Origin: Flavobacteriaceae bacterium
GTDB lineage: Bacteria; Bacteroidota; Bacteroidia; Flavobacteriales; Flavobacteriaceae
Direction of reading: 5' to 3'
Assembly (NCBI GenBank): GCA_013043685.1
Contig: JABDNT010000046.1
Span: 92,439-156,438, forward strand
Length of the DNA: 64,000 nucleotides
This document shows, one piece after another, positions 9,418 to 19,291 of this stretch (position 1 is the first letter of the stretch; each line of letters begins with the position of its first letter). The translations under genes were made by a program, and so were the position numbers. The notes beneath the pieces are model-generated. The model searched no databases and had not been told where the DNA came from. It saw nothing but the letters and a program-made list of their open reading frames with translations.

Positions 9418-11337
9418 TTATCTGCCTCGCTTAATGAGTTTTAATTGCCCGGCACCGTTATCCGAATCCAGAGATACTACATATAATCCGTTGGCCAGTT
9501 GGTCACTTAGTTCAAAATTAAGTTCATTACGACCTCTGTTCAGCTGAACGGCTTGTTGCGAAATAATTTGTCCGCTTACACCGTATATACTTAATGTAGC
9601 ACTGGACGGCCTGCTGCTTTCAATTACGAGGTTGAAATATTTCTGAACCGGGTTAGGATATGCAGTGAGCTCGATCGATTTAACTTCCGGAAAAGGAAAG
9701 AATTCTACAGCTAAGAGATCCCGAGGCACGGCAATGAAAACATCTTCCTGAAGTGTTTCAATACTTGAATTACGCAGAATGATCTCTGAAAGCTTCGTGC
9801 TCTTTAATTCATCGATTTCCCCCGTAGTAAAAGCAGGGTCATTCTCATAGTAATAACGATCACCGTCACGAAGTGCCTGGAACTGTAATTTAAGTATTTC
9901 ATGCAATCCTTCACCCACAAGTGCATTCGGTAAGTGGTCCTCACTCATAAAGCCGATCCATGGATCCAGTTTTCCAATATCACCTTCGTATACGGTAGCT
10001 AAATTACCACTCAGGACCGGGTCTGAAGTCAAGCTATTGAAATCAGCATGAGGTGTCAGTGAAAGGTCGGTTCGGAACGTATTATAATCGGGAATCCCAC
10101 GTTCGCGTGCACGCGCAAGGTTTATGGACAGAAGGTCTATACCACCAGAACCGGGTTGACCGAAAAGGAAGTTTCGTATATCATCCATGATCAGTGGATC
10201 TACCAGCTGATGTTCCTGGGCCGCCAGTCCCCTGAAAAAAGGTTCAATACCGCCTTCATCTTTCAGGATGGCAGGATTAAAAAAGCCATCTCTAAGATCA
10301 ACGGCACCAAAAACCCAGTCGTCACCATTCTCTTCATAGCGAACCAGGCGTCCGTTCACCATAGTATGACCAAAACGATAGCCTGCAGCAGAAAAAGTAT
10401 TGAGGATGTTAGGCTCAACAGTGTCATCATATCCTGCATAAGGATCTATCTGGATACCAATGTGAGGTAAGAACTCTTCGTAAGTCACTACCTGAATCAG
10501 TGCTCCAACTATTTTTCTTACTCTCTGAAAGATCTCTTCATCATTCCAAGAAGGATTCTGATCCTTGATTTCGTCACAAAGCCTGTTGTGTTCACGAACC
10601 CACAGCGTGTGGAAACAGGAGAGTCCAGGCTGCTCGTTAACTCGAATATCCCCTCCCACAAAGAATTTCTCGGGCAGTGGAAATCCATCCAGAACCATAA
10701 ACGGAGCAGCAGGGTCAATTGCACTGTCAAATTCCCCATCTACGGTATTCCACGGTAAAAGATCTCCGGAGGAGGTCTTCAGCTTTCCATCCACAAATGT
10801 GCGCAGCCAGTTGGCTCGATTGATGTCGCTTCCATATACTGCCGAGCCATCAATATAGCTGGTGATATCGTTGATGTGTTTTCTCGGATTGTTAATAGAA
10901 GTACCCGTTGCAGGATCGGACTTAGATCTGAACATACGCAGAGTCTCGTTCCCCGTGCAGTTCGGGTCGAACAGAGGTTCACACATGGGAACCGGAATAT
11001 CGTTGGGTTCGTCGAAATTATCATCGTTCAAATTAACATCGTGATCTATAAACTGGCCCCAGCCCCAGATAAAGTCACTTAATTCCAACTCGTTGGCAAT
11101 GAATTCGGTCTGGCTTCCAATAGCATTACTTATCTCCCTGGGATTAGGTCTGTCCTGGCCTCCTGGCTCGCTTATAAGATCGCCAAAGGCATTGGTCGCA
11201 AAATTTCTGAAATGCGCATCAGCAGCACCCCACTCGGGATTGTTTAAATTGTTGTTCGTTCCGTCATAGCTTCGGTTTAGCTGAGCAAAACCTTGTATGG
11301 AAATAAAGAAAGCGGTGATAAGTATTAATGTTTTCAT
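9418..11337 (-). CDS. Animal-type heme peroxidase (peroxinectin-like) with T9SS sorting domain
   Basis: FIWGWGQFIDHDVNL, DGSAVYGSD, WVREHNRLCDEI, FSAAGYRFGHTMVNG; C-terminal YPNPVQKYFNLVIESS T9SS domain. Likely start MKTLILITAFF at 11337, not 11466. Confidence 0.88.
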   Translation of the reverse strand: MKTLILITAFFISIQGFAQLNRSYDGTNNNLNNPEWGAADAHFRNFATNAFGDLISEPGGQDRPNPREISNAIGSQTEFIANELELSDFIWGWGQFIDHDVNLNDDNFDEPNDIPVPMCEPLFDPNCTGNETLRMFRSKSDPATGTSINNPRKHINDITSYIDGSAVYGSDINRANWLRTFVDGKLKTSSGDLLPWNTVDGEFDSAIDPAAPFMVLDGFPLPEKFFVGGDIRVNEQPGLSCFHTLWVREHNRLCDEIKDQNPSWNDEEIFQRVRKIVGALIQVVTYEEFLPHIGIQIDPYAGYDDTVEPNILNTFSAAGYRFGHTMVNGRLVRYEENGDDWVFGAVDLRDGFFNPAILKDEGGIEPFFRGLAAQEHQLVDPLIMDDIRNFLFGQPGSGGIDLLSINLARARERGIPDYNTFRTDLSLTPHADFNSLTSDPVLSGNLATVYEGDIGKLDPWIGFMSEDHLPNALVGEGLHEILKLQFQALRDGDRYYYENDPAFTTGEIDELKSTKLSEIILRNSSIETLQEDVFIAVPRDLLAVEFFPFPEVKSIELTAYPNPVQKYFNLVIESSRPSSATLSIYGVSGQIISQQAVQLNRGRNELNFELSDQLANGLYVVSLDSDNGAGQLKLIKRGR

Positions 11338-11384
11338 AAAAGCTAATATAAAAGTTAATCGGAAATCATCACAATTTGTCGTCT

Positions 11385-12116
11385 TTAATTTATTAACCGG
11401 TATACCTCTTTGAAAGGAATTCTGAAACGTGGCCCATAGATCCCTTTTTCGTCGCGGATGCCGCACCCTATCACCATGTTGATCTCTGCACGATAAGGTA
11501 TCTTTAAAATCCGCTTCACTCTCAGGGTATCACTTCCTTCCATCGGACAAGTATCATAACCGATGGACGCCATACTGATCATAAAATTCTGTGCTGCCAG
11601 GCCGGCACTTTTATGTGCGACCACCCGCATATCACTGGTCCTGGCCTGCCGGTATATGGGCCTGAATAGCCCTACGAGCTGAAAAGCCAGGAATTTCAGC
11701 CATCCGAAGATACCCAGGAAATCGAAATAAGTAACTGGAATTAGCTTACCATAATAGTTTTGGGCCATTTTTCTCCGTTTCTCAAGGCGCGGAGTCATTT
11801 CGGTATTGTTGAATCCTTCTTCGATAAACTTAAGATTAGCCCTGGCCCGTTGTCTCCAAAGATCTTTTCTTGCAACAACAACTACCAGTTGTTTTGCCGT
11901 TTTCGATGCATTTTGATTGAAACACGCAACAGCTATTCTACGAATGATCTCCGGATTGGTAATGTGATAGAATTCCCAAAGTTGAAGGTTACTGCTTGTG
12001 GCAGCTAAAGTGGCATTTTTAAGACATTGTTCAACCTTTTGGGTGTCGATGGGCTCCTCCTTGAAAACTCGAACCGCACGACGGTAGGCAATTGCCTCTG
12101 AAACCGTTTTTTCCAT
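11385..12116 (-). CDS. Nitroreductase family protein
   Basis: AIAYRRAVRVFKEEPIDTQKVEQCL..AATSSNLQLWEF, ASIGYDTCPMEG. Confidence 0.9.
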   Translation of the reverse strand: MEKTVSEAIAYRRAVRVFKEEPIDTQKVEQCLKNATLAATSSNLQLWEFYHITNPEIIRRIAVACFNQNASKTAKQLVVVVARKDLWRQRARANLKFIEEGFNNTEMTPRLEKRRKMAQNYYGKLIPVTYFDFLGIFGWLKFLAFQLVGLFRPIYRQARTSDMRVVAHKSAGLAAQNFMISMASIGYDTCPMEGSDTLRVKRILKIPYRAEINMVIGCGIRDEKGIYGPRFRIPFKEVYRLIN

Positions 12117-12213: not shown

Positions 12214-12954
12214 TTATTCCTTCTTTTTCTTCACCGGTAAAACTTCTTCAGGGAAAGGGAAGAGGATGGTCGAATTCTTTTCAGAAGCAATATTAGATAA
12301 GGTTTGGTAAAGCCTTAATTTTATAGCTGAAGGTGATTGATCAATGATCTGTCCGGCCTCGAATAATTTTTGTGCGGCTTGTTCTTCAGCTTCAGCAAGA
12401 ATTATCCTGGCTCTACGCGAGCGTTCTGCCTCGGCCTGATTGGCCATCATTCTTCTCATATTTTCAGGAAGCTGAATGTCTTTGATCTTGACATCATTTA
12501 TTTCGATACCCCATTCCATGGTTTCCATTTCTACAATTTCCTTTATGTTTTTACCCATTTCTTCGCGCTTCGAAAGAATGGTATCCAGTTCTACCTTACC
12601 ACAAACATCTCTCAATGCAGCTTGCGCTAATTGTGAGATGGCGAATTTATATTCTTCTACTTCGAGTACGGCTTTTTCAGGGTCATTTATTCTGAAAAAG
12701 ACCACTCCGTCTATACTACAGGGTACGTTATCTTCAGTCATTACTTCCTGGGAAACTATGTTGATTGTAATAACCCGAATGTCCACAACCTGGATGGTTT
12801 CAACCACAGGGATGATCCAACGGAAACCGGGTTGCAGGGTTTTTATATACTTTCCAAATCGAAATTTTAGTGCTCTTTTGTATTCAAAGACCACGCGAAT
12901 CCCCAATAATAGGAATACAACAAAAACTATACTGAATAATACAATTGGATTCAT
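12214..12954 (-). CDS. SPFH/Band 7 (stomatin/slipin-like) protein
   Basis: N-terminal TM, EYKRALKFRFGKYIKTLQPGFRWIIPVVETIQVVDIRVITINI, QAEAERSRRARIILAEAEEQAA. Confidence 0.92.
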   Translation of the reverse strand: MNPIVLFSIVFVVFLLLGIRVVFEYKRALKFRFGKYIKTLQPGFRWIIPVVETIQVVDIRVITINIVSQEVMTEDNVPCSIDGVVFFRINDPEKAVLEVEEYKFAISQLAQAALRDVCGKVELDTILSKREEMGKNIKEIVEMETMEWGIEINDVKIKDIQLPENMRRMMANQAEAERSRRARIILAEAEEQAAQKLFEAGQIIDQSPSAIKLRLYQTLSNIASEKNSTILFPFPEEVLPVKKKKE

Positions 12955-13051: not shown

Positions 13052-13087
13052 GCACAAAAAAACCTCCCGTTATTTCAGCGGGAGGTT
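13052..13087 (-). terminator. Rho-independent terminator downstream of the 32 aa ORF
   Basis: AACCTCCCG (13061-13069)/CGGGAGGTT (13079-13087) stem, preceded on + by AAAAAA (poly-T on minus strand). Confidence 0.8.
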
Positions 13088-13115
13088 TTATGGATTCCGG
13101 TTGGTGTGGAGAAGA

Positions 13116-13214
13116 CTATCTGTGGATTGCATAACTACTGGCTTTCGCAAATTCAGCTAATTTTACATTCCACTTACTAAGTTTCTCACTCCAAAGTTGT
13201 TTCCAATTTTTCAT
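13116..13214 (-). CDS. Small basic protein, 32 aa, ASSYAIHR family (copy A)
   Basis: MKNWKQLWSEKLSKWNVKLAEFAKASSYAIHR*; shares its C-terminal half with 18742..18855. Not in ORF track because of length. Confidence 0.78.
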   Translation of the reverse strand: MKNWKQLWSEKLSKWNVKLAEFAKASSYAIHR

Positions 13215-13442
13215 AACTCGAATTTTAGGGTTATGCCATCAGAAATCCAACAAGCGTGCCATTAGTTGAAGCAATTCTCTAACTGTTTGAAATTGAATAG
13301 AATAAAACTATTTTGAACATATATCCTAAACTATATTATGTAAGAATATGATGCCGACCTATTCCTCTCAATTCACTCCATTTAATTTCATTTTAACAGC
13401 CGGATTTTGTATCTTTTTAAGAACAATTCAAATACTCATAAC

Positions 13443-14135
13443 TTGAAACGTCTGGTGCTGATTATGGCTATATTTCTTACGGCTTTTGCGAATTGCCAGT
13501 CCGATTATTCAGAACGTCGTGCCAAAATGGTAAGGGGACAACTGGAATCACGTGGAATAAAGGATAAAGCAACATTGGAGGCAATGCGCAAAGTACCCCG
13601 GCATATGTTTGTGCCAGAAAATGCAAAAGGCAAGGCTTATATCGACGCACCACTTACCATTGGGAAAGGCCAGACCATTTCTCAGCCATATATTGTCGGC
13701 TATATGACAGAACAGCTCCAGCTAAAGCCAACAGATAAGGTACTGGAGATAGGGACAGGTTCTGGTTACCAGGCTGCGGTCCTGGCTGAAATTGTTTCCG
13801 AGGTCTACTCCATAGAGATCATTGAATCCCTGGGTGAGACTGCGGCAAACCGACTGAAAAGTCTTGGTTACGATAACGTCGAGGTGAGAATTGGTGATGG
13901 CTACCTGGGATGGCCGGAAAAAGCGCCGTTCGATGCTATTATTATAACCGCCGGTATAGATCATGTTCCTCAGCCTCTAATAGACCAGTTGGCGGAAGGC
14001 GGCCGGCTAATTGTTCCTGAAGGGGCCAGGCGAAGTACACGCGACCTTATGTTGCTTAGGAAAAAGAAAGGTAAGATCAAACGTAAATTCCTTATCCCTG
14101 TTGTTTTTGTTGAATTTCAGCGGAAGAACGATTAA
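13443..14135 (+). CDS. pcm: Protein-L-isoaspartate(D-aspartate) O-methyltransferase, putative lipoprotein
   Basis: RAKMVRGQLESRGIKD...VPRHMFVPE...IGKGQTISQPYIVGYMTEQL...VLEIGTGSGYQAAVLAEI. Likely TTG start at 13443 gives LKRLVLIMAIFLTAFANC lipobox-like leader. Confidence 0.9.
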   Translation: MKRLVLIMAIFLTAFANCQSDYSERRAKMVRGQLESRGIKDKATLEAMRKVPRHMFVPENAKGKAYIDAPLTIGKGQTISQPYIVGYMTEQLQLKPTDKVLEIGTGSGYQAAVLAEIVSEVYSIEIIESLGETAANRLKSLGYDNVEVRIGDGYLGWPEKAPFDAIIITAGIDHVPQPLIDQLAEGGRLIVPEGARRSTRDLMLLRKKKGKIKRKFLIPVVFVEFQRKND

Positions 14136-17012: not shown

Positions 17013-18665
17013 ATGAAAAAAATCATCTTACTCTTCATCAGTTTCCTGATGTTACAGGCAACTGCACAATCGACTTTTACCGCCCAACAATGGCAGGACG
17101 ACCTCAAATTTCTTCAACATACGGTTCATAAGGACTATCCATTTCTCTTCAAAAAAGTTACTTCGGAAGCCTTTGATGCGGCTGTCGAGAAACTCCACAA
17201 ACAGATTCCAAATCTGGCGCAACATGAGATCAGTATAGGATTTGCCCGGATAATAGGAATGTTCAAATACGGACATACCCGTATGGGATGGCATGGCAAT
17301 CCCACAGCTTTAAGACAATTCCCTGTTAATCTCTATCGTTTCTCAGACGGAGTCTATGTTCAGGGAGTCCATAAGGACTACTCTCAAGCTTTAGGAGCTA
17401 AGGTCCTCAGGGTAGGGAATATGTCTGTTGAAGAAGCATTAAAAGCTGTGTATCCAGTGGTACCTGTAGAAAATGAGCAATTCTTTAAAGCATACGGATT
17501 CCTTTATCTTATGAGTCCCGAAGTATTACATGCTCAGGGGGTTGTTTCGGAATTATCAGACCAGCTTGAGCTGACCCTTGAAAAGGAAGGAAAGACCTTT
17601 AAGACCACATTTGAAGTACTTCCTGCAGGGAAGATGCCACCCAGAACCTACGGATATATACAAACTTCAGATGAGTGGCTTGATGTGCGTGCCTCAGGGG
17701 AAACACCACTATATCTAAAACAACTTGACAAAATATACTACTACGAATACCTGCCGGATTCTAAAACCGTATACGTTCGGCAGAGCCAGATTCAGGATGA
17801 TCCAACTGAACCGATCCCTGCATTTTATACCCGGGTGTTCGATTTCATCGAAAAGAATGATGTGCAACGCCTTGTACTGGATGTGCGGTTGAACGGGGGA
17901 GGGAACAATTACAAGAACAAAGCGGTGGTGACCAGGATCATAGAATCTAAGAAGATAAACCAGGTTGGAAATTTTGTTGTTGTTCTGGGCCGGAGAACAT
18001 TTTCGGCATGTCAGAACCTTGTGAATGAACTGGACAATTACACCAATGCTGTATTTGTTGGGGAGCCCACAGGTGAGAATATCAATTTTTACGGTGATAA
18101 TAATGAGGTGATCCTTCCCAACACTAAAACCCCGGTTTATCTCTCCTTTGCCTGGTGGCAGGACAAACCACAATGGGAAAACGACGATTGGCTGGCCCCG
18201 CATATAGCCATCGATATGAGTTTTGAAGAATATAAAACCAATAAGGATCCGGTATTGGAAGCTGCGCTCAGCTTTGACGATTCTGATTTTGTACTCGATC
18301 CAATGCAGTATATGACGGAGCTATATACCTCGGGACAACAGGAAAAACTGGCTACCGAAGTACCTAAAATGGTAAGAGACCCCAGGTATAAGTTTTTTAA
18401 CTTCGAAGGAGAACTGAATGAAGCAGGGTATAATTCTATACAACGTGGTGACCCTCAAACGGCTATTGCTATTTTCACCTTTATAACTCAATTATTCCCG
18501 GAATCGGCAAATGCATGGGATAGTTTAGCCGAAGGTTATTTAGAGGCTGGAGACAAGGAAAAGGCGACAGAATACTATCAAAAAGCGCTGAAGATGGATC
18601 CTGATGGACCCACTGGTAAGAATGCGAGCGGTATGTTGCGGAAAATTGAAGTCGGCTCTCATTAA
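17013..18665 (+). CDS. Exported S41-like peptidase with C-terminal TPR
   Basis: LVLDVRLNGGGNNYKNKAVV, RRTFSACQNLVNELDNYTNAVFVGEPTG; C-terminal ANAWDSLAEGYLEAGDKEKATEYYQKALKMDP. Confidence 0.82.
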   Translation: MKKIILLFISFLMLQATAQSTFTAQQWQDDLKFLQHTVHKDYPFLFKKVTSEAFDAAVEKLHKQIPNLAQHEISIGFARIIGMFKYGHTRMGWHGNPTALRQFPVNLYRFSDGVYVQGVHKDYSQALGAKVLRVGNMSVEEALKAVYPVVPVENEQFFKAYGFLYLMSPEVLHAQGVVSELSDQLELTLEKEGKTFKTTFEVLPAGKMPPRTYGYIQTSDEWLDVRASGETPLYLKQLDKIYYYEYLPDSKTVYVRQSQIQDDPTEPIPAFYTRVFDFIEKNDVQRLVLDVRLNGGGNNYKNKAVVTRIIESKKINQVGNFVVVLGRRTFSACQNLVNELDNYTNAVFVGEPTGENINFYGDNNEVILPNTKTPVYLSFAWWQDKPQWENDDWLAPHIAIDMSFEEYKTNKDPVLEAALSFDDSDFVLDPMQYMTELYTSGQQEKLATEVPKMVRDPRYKFFNFEGELNEAGYNSIQRGDPQTAIAIFTFITQLFPESANAWDSLAEGYLEAGDKEKATEYYQKALKMDPDGPTGKNASGMLRKIEVGSH

Positions 18666-18741: not shown

Positions 18742-18855
18742 CTATCTGTGAATGGCATAGCTACTGGCTCTTGCGTATACGGCCAATTTGGCTTTCCAAA
18801 CTTTTAGTTTTTCATCCCAATTGTTAAAGAATTTTTTGCGTAGTTTTTTCATCAT
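18742..18855 (-). CDS. Small basic protein, 37 aa, ASSYAIHR family (copy B)
   Basis: MMKKLRKKFFNNWDEKLKVWKAKLAVYARASSYAIHR*; paralog of 13116..13214. Not in ORF track because of length. Confidence 0.78.
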   Translation of the reverse strand: MMKKLRKKFFNNWDEKLKVWKAKLAVYARASSYAIHR

Positions 18856-19291
18856 ATATCATTGTTTTATGGGTTATTAAATCATTTAATGCGTCCTTAA
18901 ACAATAGATAAGAGGAAAGTGTAATTTATAATCGAAAATCGATTAAAAGAGGTAAGATAAGGGGGTATAGTATAAATGTAAGAAATTTCTGGTTATTACA
19001 ATTACACTTTTCAAACTATTCGATGAAATGTATAGAAAATCAGATGTTCATTAGTGGCTAGTTGTAATTTATATCATGGCAAACACGCTTATCTACCATG
19101 TTCAAAATCAACACCCTCATTATCAATATTTTAAATACTAATTATCGTCAATATCAGTGTTTCAGGCTGATTTATGTTCACACGCTTTTACATGTTCTGT
19201 CCTCAACTTATCTTTCAAATTCTTAAATGAAAAAATAAAAAACTGTGATTTTTTCAGTACCATGTTAACTAATAGAGTAGAACATCATTGA

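Follow-up and report, generated by a model that had tools for sequence, protein, structure and literature searches.

Small accessory proteins such as SpoVM and AzuC, about 26 to 30 residues long, are basic amphipathic helices that are made under specific conditions and act at the membrane surface or on one enzyme. A related layout is found in the leaderless bacteriocins LsbB and EntK1, short peptides without a leader in which an amphiphilic N-terminal helix is followed by a C-terminal part (PMC5413573), the tail of LsbB being its receptor-binding part (PMC5413573, as cited there). As to regulation in the Flavobacteriaceae, sigma-54 of Flavobacterium psychrophilum acts at promoters of the -24/-12 type and controls chaperones, proteases and envelope functions (GroESL, DnaK, GrpE, DnaJ, HtpG, ClpB, Lon and Skp), together with gliding genes and one putative small regulatory RNA, Rfp36 (PMC9723704).

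Copies A and B, the two genes described here, are paralogues and belong to a microprotein family of marine Flavobacteriaceae that has not been described before. They can be likened to AzuC and SpoVM by shape, although the latter belong to other phyla and the family also differs by its long, conserved tail at the C-terminus and its two classes of promoter. Unlike LsbB and EntK1, its members lack adjacent immunity or transporter genes, are conserved over many genera and form stand-alone intergenic units. Both copies lie in the window, that is, the whole stretch of 64,000 nucleotides that was analyzed, and they are the only members in this 3.0 Mb genome. Their features are the following:

13116..13214, minus strand: coding sequence of copy A, 32 aa, MKNWKQLWSEKLSKWNVKLAEFAKASSYAIHR
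13246..13262, minus strand: sigma-54-like promoter for copy A, TGGCACGCTTGTTGG, lying 47 nt 5' of the ATG
13223..13234, minus strand: leader element of copy A before the ATG, ATAACCCTAAAA, a flavobacterial translation-initiation signal
13054..13091, minus strand: intrinsic terminator of copy A, AACCTCCCG...CGGGAGGTT plus a T-run
18742..18855, minus strand: coding sequence of copy B, 37 aa, MMKKLRKKFFNNWDEKLKVWKAKLAVYARASSYAIHR
18973..18990, minus strand: class-B upstream element of copy B, AGAAATTTCTTACATTTA, about 134 nt upstream of the ATG
19015..19029, minus strand: second conserved box, ATTTCATCGAATAGT, 5' of the class-B element and present in part of the class-B copies
18865..18877, minus strand: leader element of copy B before the ATG, ATAACCCATAAAA
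18688..18719, minus strand: terminator of copy B, common to the convergent S41/TPR gene (17013-18665, plus strand)

The translations of both open reading frames given in an earlier, sequence-only reading of this DNA were reproduced exactly. Copy A does stand alone in its gap, as had been stated there, between a Band-7/SPFH gene (12214-12954, minus strand) and the open reading frame of a protein-isoaspartate methyltransferase (PCMT) gene (13407-14135, plus strand). Copy B is flanked by the convergent S41/TPR gene and by a divergent gene of the sigma-70 family (ECF-like). The window also encodes, at 9418-11466 on the minus strand, an animal-type haem peroxidase bearing a sorting domain for type IX secretion; in eight related loci, both a haem peroxidase and a Band-7 gene lie downstream of the family member.

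Each copy forms a short unit of its own, consisting of a promoter element, an initiation signal, a coding sequence of 32 to 37 codons and a terminator. The ATAACCC(A)TAAAA leaders noticed earlier are indeed present 8-9 nt 5' of each ATG, and their AAAA (-13 to -10) is conserved family-wide, more than expected by chance. Positions -15 to -10 read TTAAAA; 86% of the copies have A at -12, and 93% have it at -11. Such a start region accords with flavobacterial translation initiation. The strong minus-strand terminator announced after copy A begins about 25 nt past the stop codon. Across the family, a terminator-like hairpin with a T-run occurs within 120 nt past the stop in 69 of 97 copies (16 of 97 after shuffling), typically about 50-57 nt after it, near +53. 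The leaders fold barely better than shuffled ones (mean z -1.0, with a hairpin in several class-B leaders), and a structured leader RNA was rejected on this weak signal.

How widespread is this family? The tail pattern A-S-S-Y-A-I-H-R-stop was found in 57 stretches when 85,488 species genomes were searched. All of them belong, judging by title, to Flavobacteriaceae genera or Bacteroidota MAGs, the genera being Aquimarina, Dokdonia, Gilvibacter, Altibacter, Ulvibacter, Flavivirga, Zobellia, Aureisphaera, Aureitalea and Pukyongia. The pattern was absent from viral contigs, and tblastn with copy B as query returned no relatives in plasmids or phages. A profile search at E <= 0.02 identified members in 37 of 400 Flavobacteriaceae genomes and 28 of 238 genera, with full-length relatives at E values down to 1e-16 or better and a few doubtful matches above 0.001; in a phylum-wide sample, the profile retrieved nothing convincing outside the family. 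Homologs of the two copies thus exist in other genomes of Flavobacteriaceae and Bacteroidota MAGs, and our working set holds 99 distinct family coding sequences, 66 of them with exactly 32 codons. The C-terminus, previously called invariant, proved strongly conserved but not fixed, since the profile brought in members with diverged tails (SYAIRK, SYAINR, ASYALNH, AAYVLNH, SNYAFRH, SNAIHR and TSHAIHR), which rule out a fully invariant tail; its apparent constancy is partly due to the first collection having been biased by the search pattern. One subgroup with the tails ASYALNH, ASYALKH or ASYALRK (L170, L173, L178 and L181, three genera) lies divergent from rplU-rpmA at 190-730 nt.

That no named family covers these peptides was borne out by Pfam-A and NCBIfam, where no profile matched below E 0.02, and the motif was found printed in no paper. 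Among 50 members compared with PHROG, a single one, MKKIVKKLSKVIKVIHRYLEELGRATNYAMNR (L134), matches phrog_37960, a profile of 66 positions and of unknown function, at 2.9e-5 and over its first 29 residues only; this match may be compositional or may reflect a phage relative.

We then come to the level at which selection acts. Over 131 pairs of 32-codon members, pN/pS in the family frame is 0.25 for the first 24 codons and 0.01 for the last 8, the latter value (but not the former) being in part an effect of ascertainment, for the pattern searched was the tail itself. The two other frames gave 1.15 and 0.91, so that purifying selection is seen in the family frame only, in line with the selection on protein that had been suspected from conservative changes between the two copies. 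Third positions within the tail codons are free to vary. Moreover, among copies whose N-terminal coding parts share 60-80% identity, the 3' UTR agrees no better than after shuffling (0.41 v 0.41), and therefore the protein rather than the RNA is under selection. Outside close relatives, conservation of the 5' UTR is limited to the initiation signal; among close relatives, CACCAACCGGAA is conserved 3' of copy A. Rfam has no match within the window. A chance open reading frame is ruled out by codon selection and taxonomic spread, and it is virtually certain that we are dealing with a real coding gene. Altogether, the existence of the family, its coding status and the layout of its units are well supported.

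The peptide had been described from its sequence as basic and amphipathic-helical, and this description stands: the variable N-terminal part has a mean net charge of +3.9 and a mean hydrophobic-moment z of 1.76, while AlphaFold2 predicts one helix spanning residues 3-31 with a mean pLDDT of 81.5. This part is on average too polar for a transmembrane segment. Comparison with solved structures and a fold search gave nothing significant, as expected for a single helix.

Upstream of the coding sequences, the copies carrying a recognizable element fall into two mutually exclusive promoter classes, which are new here; no copy has both elements, and the housekeeping TTG-N-TAnnTTTG promoter was found in neither class. 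The earlier single family holds as a small-protein family, but copies A and B belong to differently regulated classes that had gone unseen. Class A, which includes copy A and members from Dokdonia, Aquimarina and Gilvibacter, is defined by TGGCAC-N5-TTG, present at 8 or more of 9 positions in 24 copies with a reverse-complement control near zero; with a longer consensus, 25 copies reach 8 or 9 of 10 positions against one in the control. The N5 spacer differs among genera, which suggests that only the two half-sites are conserved. Copy A has the -24 element TGGCAC. In the -12 element, the TTG is kept and is followed by A, G or T, unlike the canonical TTGC of the F. psychrophilum regulon (PMC9723704); as copy A reads TTGG, the use of sigma-54 is deduced from half of the motif. 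The genome encodes RpoN, and a similar site, TTGGCATAATTTCTG, precedes its groES. Six other TTGGCAC-N5-TTG sites were found in this genome, most of them intragenic, so that the regulon cannot be derived from the motif alone. Two of these sites are candidate sigma-54 promoters located 100 and 48 nt before lipoprotein-like genes (L207 1501 and L210 1501, on C20 and C66, respectively). The published sigma-54 table of F. psychrophilum lists no member of the peptide family (PMC9723704). Given that sigma-54 controls chaperones and envelope stress functions in that species, copy A is probably stress-induced as well.

Class B is characterized by the consensus AGAAWTTTCKTACATTTA: 17 copies, copy B among them, agree with it at no fewer than 14 of 17 positions and controls at no more than 13, and 95-189 nt separate the element from the ATG. 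Exact copies of it were seen, among all fetched loci, only in family-bearing ones, and the window's own genome has one exact site. This undescribed 18-nt element was noted at 18973-18990 (minus strand) as well as in L044, L048, L065, L068, L080, L088, L141 and L187; a further box, TCAWCGAWTAGT, is found about 40 nt 5' of it in part of the class-B loci. Neither element is present in 58 of the 99 copies, four of which have a housekeeping-type promoter (0.6 expected), indicating that stress control is not universal.

Loci with at least two members always have them on a single strand; when both classes could be identified, B is upstream of A at a distance of 0.37 to 14 kb. B and A are adjacent in one MAG (L086), which suggests an old tandem pair that was later separated by insertions. 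In relatives from Aquimarina, 2 to 4 diverged copies form an array, within which the tails have diversified. No neighbor gene common to distant genera was found, downstream genes being same-strand or convergent, and a conserved neighbor function was rejected since the commonest neighbors (S41/TPR, Band-7, haem peroxidase and M28) are each seen again in no more than 9 of 78 loci. Type IV secretion loci of the conjugation type that carry a family member were also observed (L182, L062, L072 and L177, including Flavivirga and Aquimarina). Also encoded there are a protein with leucine-rich repeats, a coiled-coil protein with a DnaJ domain, and proteins with KRQLG[QK]GRY repeats that might be effectors.

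What could these peptides do? The sequence-only reading offered an open-ended list, namely a regulator, a toxin-like or signaling peptide, or a ribosome- or membrane-associated factor. A toxin or antimicrobial peptide (leaderless bacteriocin, phenol-soluble-modulin-like peptide or membrane toxin of a toxin-antitoxin system) would perturb membranes with its helix and bind a receptor with its tail, as LsbB and EntK1 do with RseP. The cationic amphipathic helix, the helix-plus-conserved-tail architecture shared with EntK1/LsbB (PMC5413573), the tandem arrays of Aquimarina relatives, the diversification of tails within single arrays and a weak, insignificant resemblance to the phenol-soluble modulins of NCBIfam (E 0.06) would fit this idea. 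We nevertheless consider it unlikely, as no fixed immunity, transporter or antitoxin gene adjoins the copies, tblastn with copy B found none in plasmids or phages, and the tail is much better conserved than the helix across many genera, which is not the habit of arms-race peptides. A type I toxin would moreover call for a hydrophobic transmembrane segment in place of the polar, +3.9 N-terminal part. Antisense control of a toxin is not favored either, antisense housekeeping promoters being at or below the shuffled level. Still less probable is a precursor of a signaling or modified peptide, whose conserved C-terminal core would be released from a variable leader and exported: many precursors have this very layout, but neither a conserved maturation enzyme, transporter or receptor adjoining the copies nor, by eye, an evident secretion signal goes with it, and we give this idea very little credit.

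Two other explanations place the function in the RNA or in cis. As in arrest peptides, conservation peaks at the last codons, and the terminator keeps a near-constant distance. This could mean that translation of the C-terminus stalls the ribosome, which would govern the terminator close by and, with it, a gene further downstream, and in three Aquimarina/Flavivirga loci the family open reading frame does end 53-65 nt before a same-strand gene for a conjugative coupling protein (TraG/YWFCY). Such a leader is nonetheless improbable: a conserved same-strand downstream gene was not found, beyond the terminator of copy B and of many relatives comes a gene in convergent orientation, and the primary sequence of the 3' UTR is not conserved. 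An attenuator for the Band-7 gene in particular was rejected, for this gene lies downstream in just 8 related loci and copy B has none. As for a small RNA acting mainly by base pairing with the peptide as its second product, the transcript would be of suitable size, class-B leaders are long and several contain a hairpin, CACCAACCGGAA is kept 3' of copy A in close relatives, and sigma-54 drives Rfp36 in F. psychrophilum. Selection is, however, plainly on codons, the UTRs beyond close relatives are at chance or conserved at the initiation signal only, the folding signal is slight and Rfam is silent on the window, so that we view this possibility as quite improbable, if marginally less so than the leader. 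An attenuator, an antisense-controlled toxin and a function at the RNA level are thus disfavored.

The promoter class, the same-strand tandems, the absence of a fixed neighbor and the lack of an antisense-promoter signal speak for a stress-regulated microprotein acting in trans, rather than for a leader in cis or a toxin under antisense control. We tentatively propose that the family consists of stress-regulated, cationic amphipathic-helix microproteins that act in trans and use their conserved tail to bind a single partner, probably at the inner membrane. Copies A and B would be switched on under different conditions, copy A as part of a sigma-54 proteostasis and envelope-stress response. The variable helix would bring the peptide to the inner-membrane surface or into a groove of its partner, and the small-residue, C-terminally basic tail [AG]-[SCA]-S-Y-A-[IL]-[HN]-[RH]-COOH would be recognized by one conserved cellular partner, the activity of which would be modulated in trans. 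The diversified tails of the Aquimarina arrays fit one fixed partner less well. We infer this mechanism, and with it the sigma factor, the stress, the membrane and the partner, from the features above. A bolder version, in which Flavobacteriaceae-specific trans-acting regulators encoded by paralogues under sigma-54 and under the undescribed element deliver one C-terminal ligand to the same receptor under different stresses, is more doubtful.

The small proteins of Bacteroidota are scarcely catalogued and the stress regulons of these bacteria are poorly known. The present family offers a ready handle: selection acts on the codons of its peptide, the tail is nearly fixed, and from the two promoter classes one can predict when either copy would be produced. 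Its hosts Dokdonia, Aquimarina, Gilvibacter, Zobellia and Aureisphaera can be cultured. The class-B element, for its part, may mark an unrecognized transcription factor or sigma factor.
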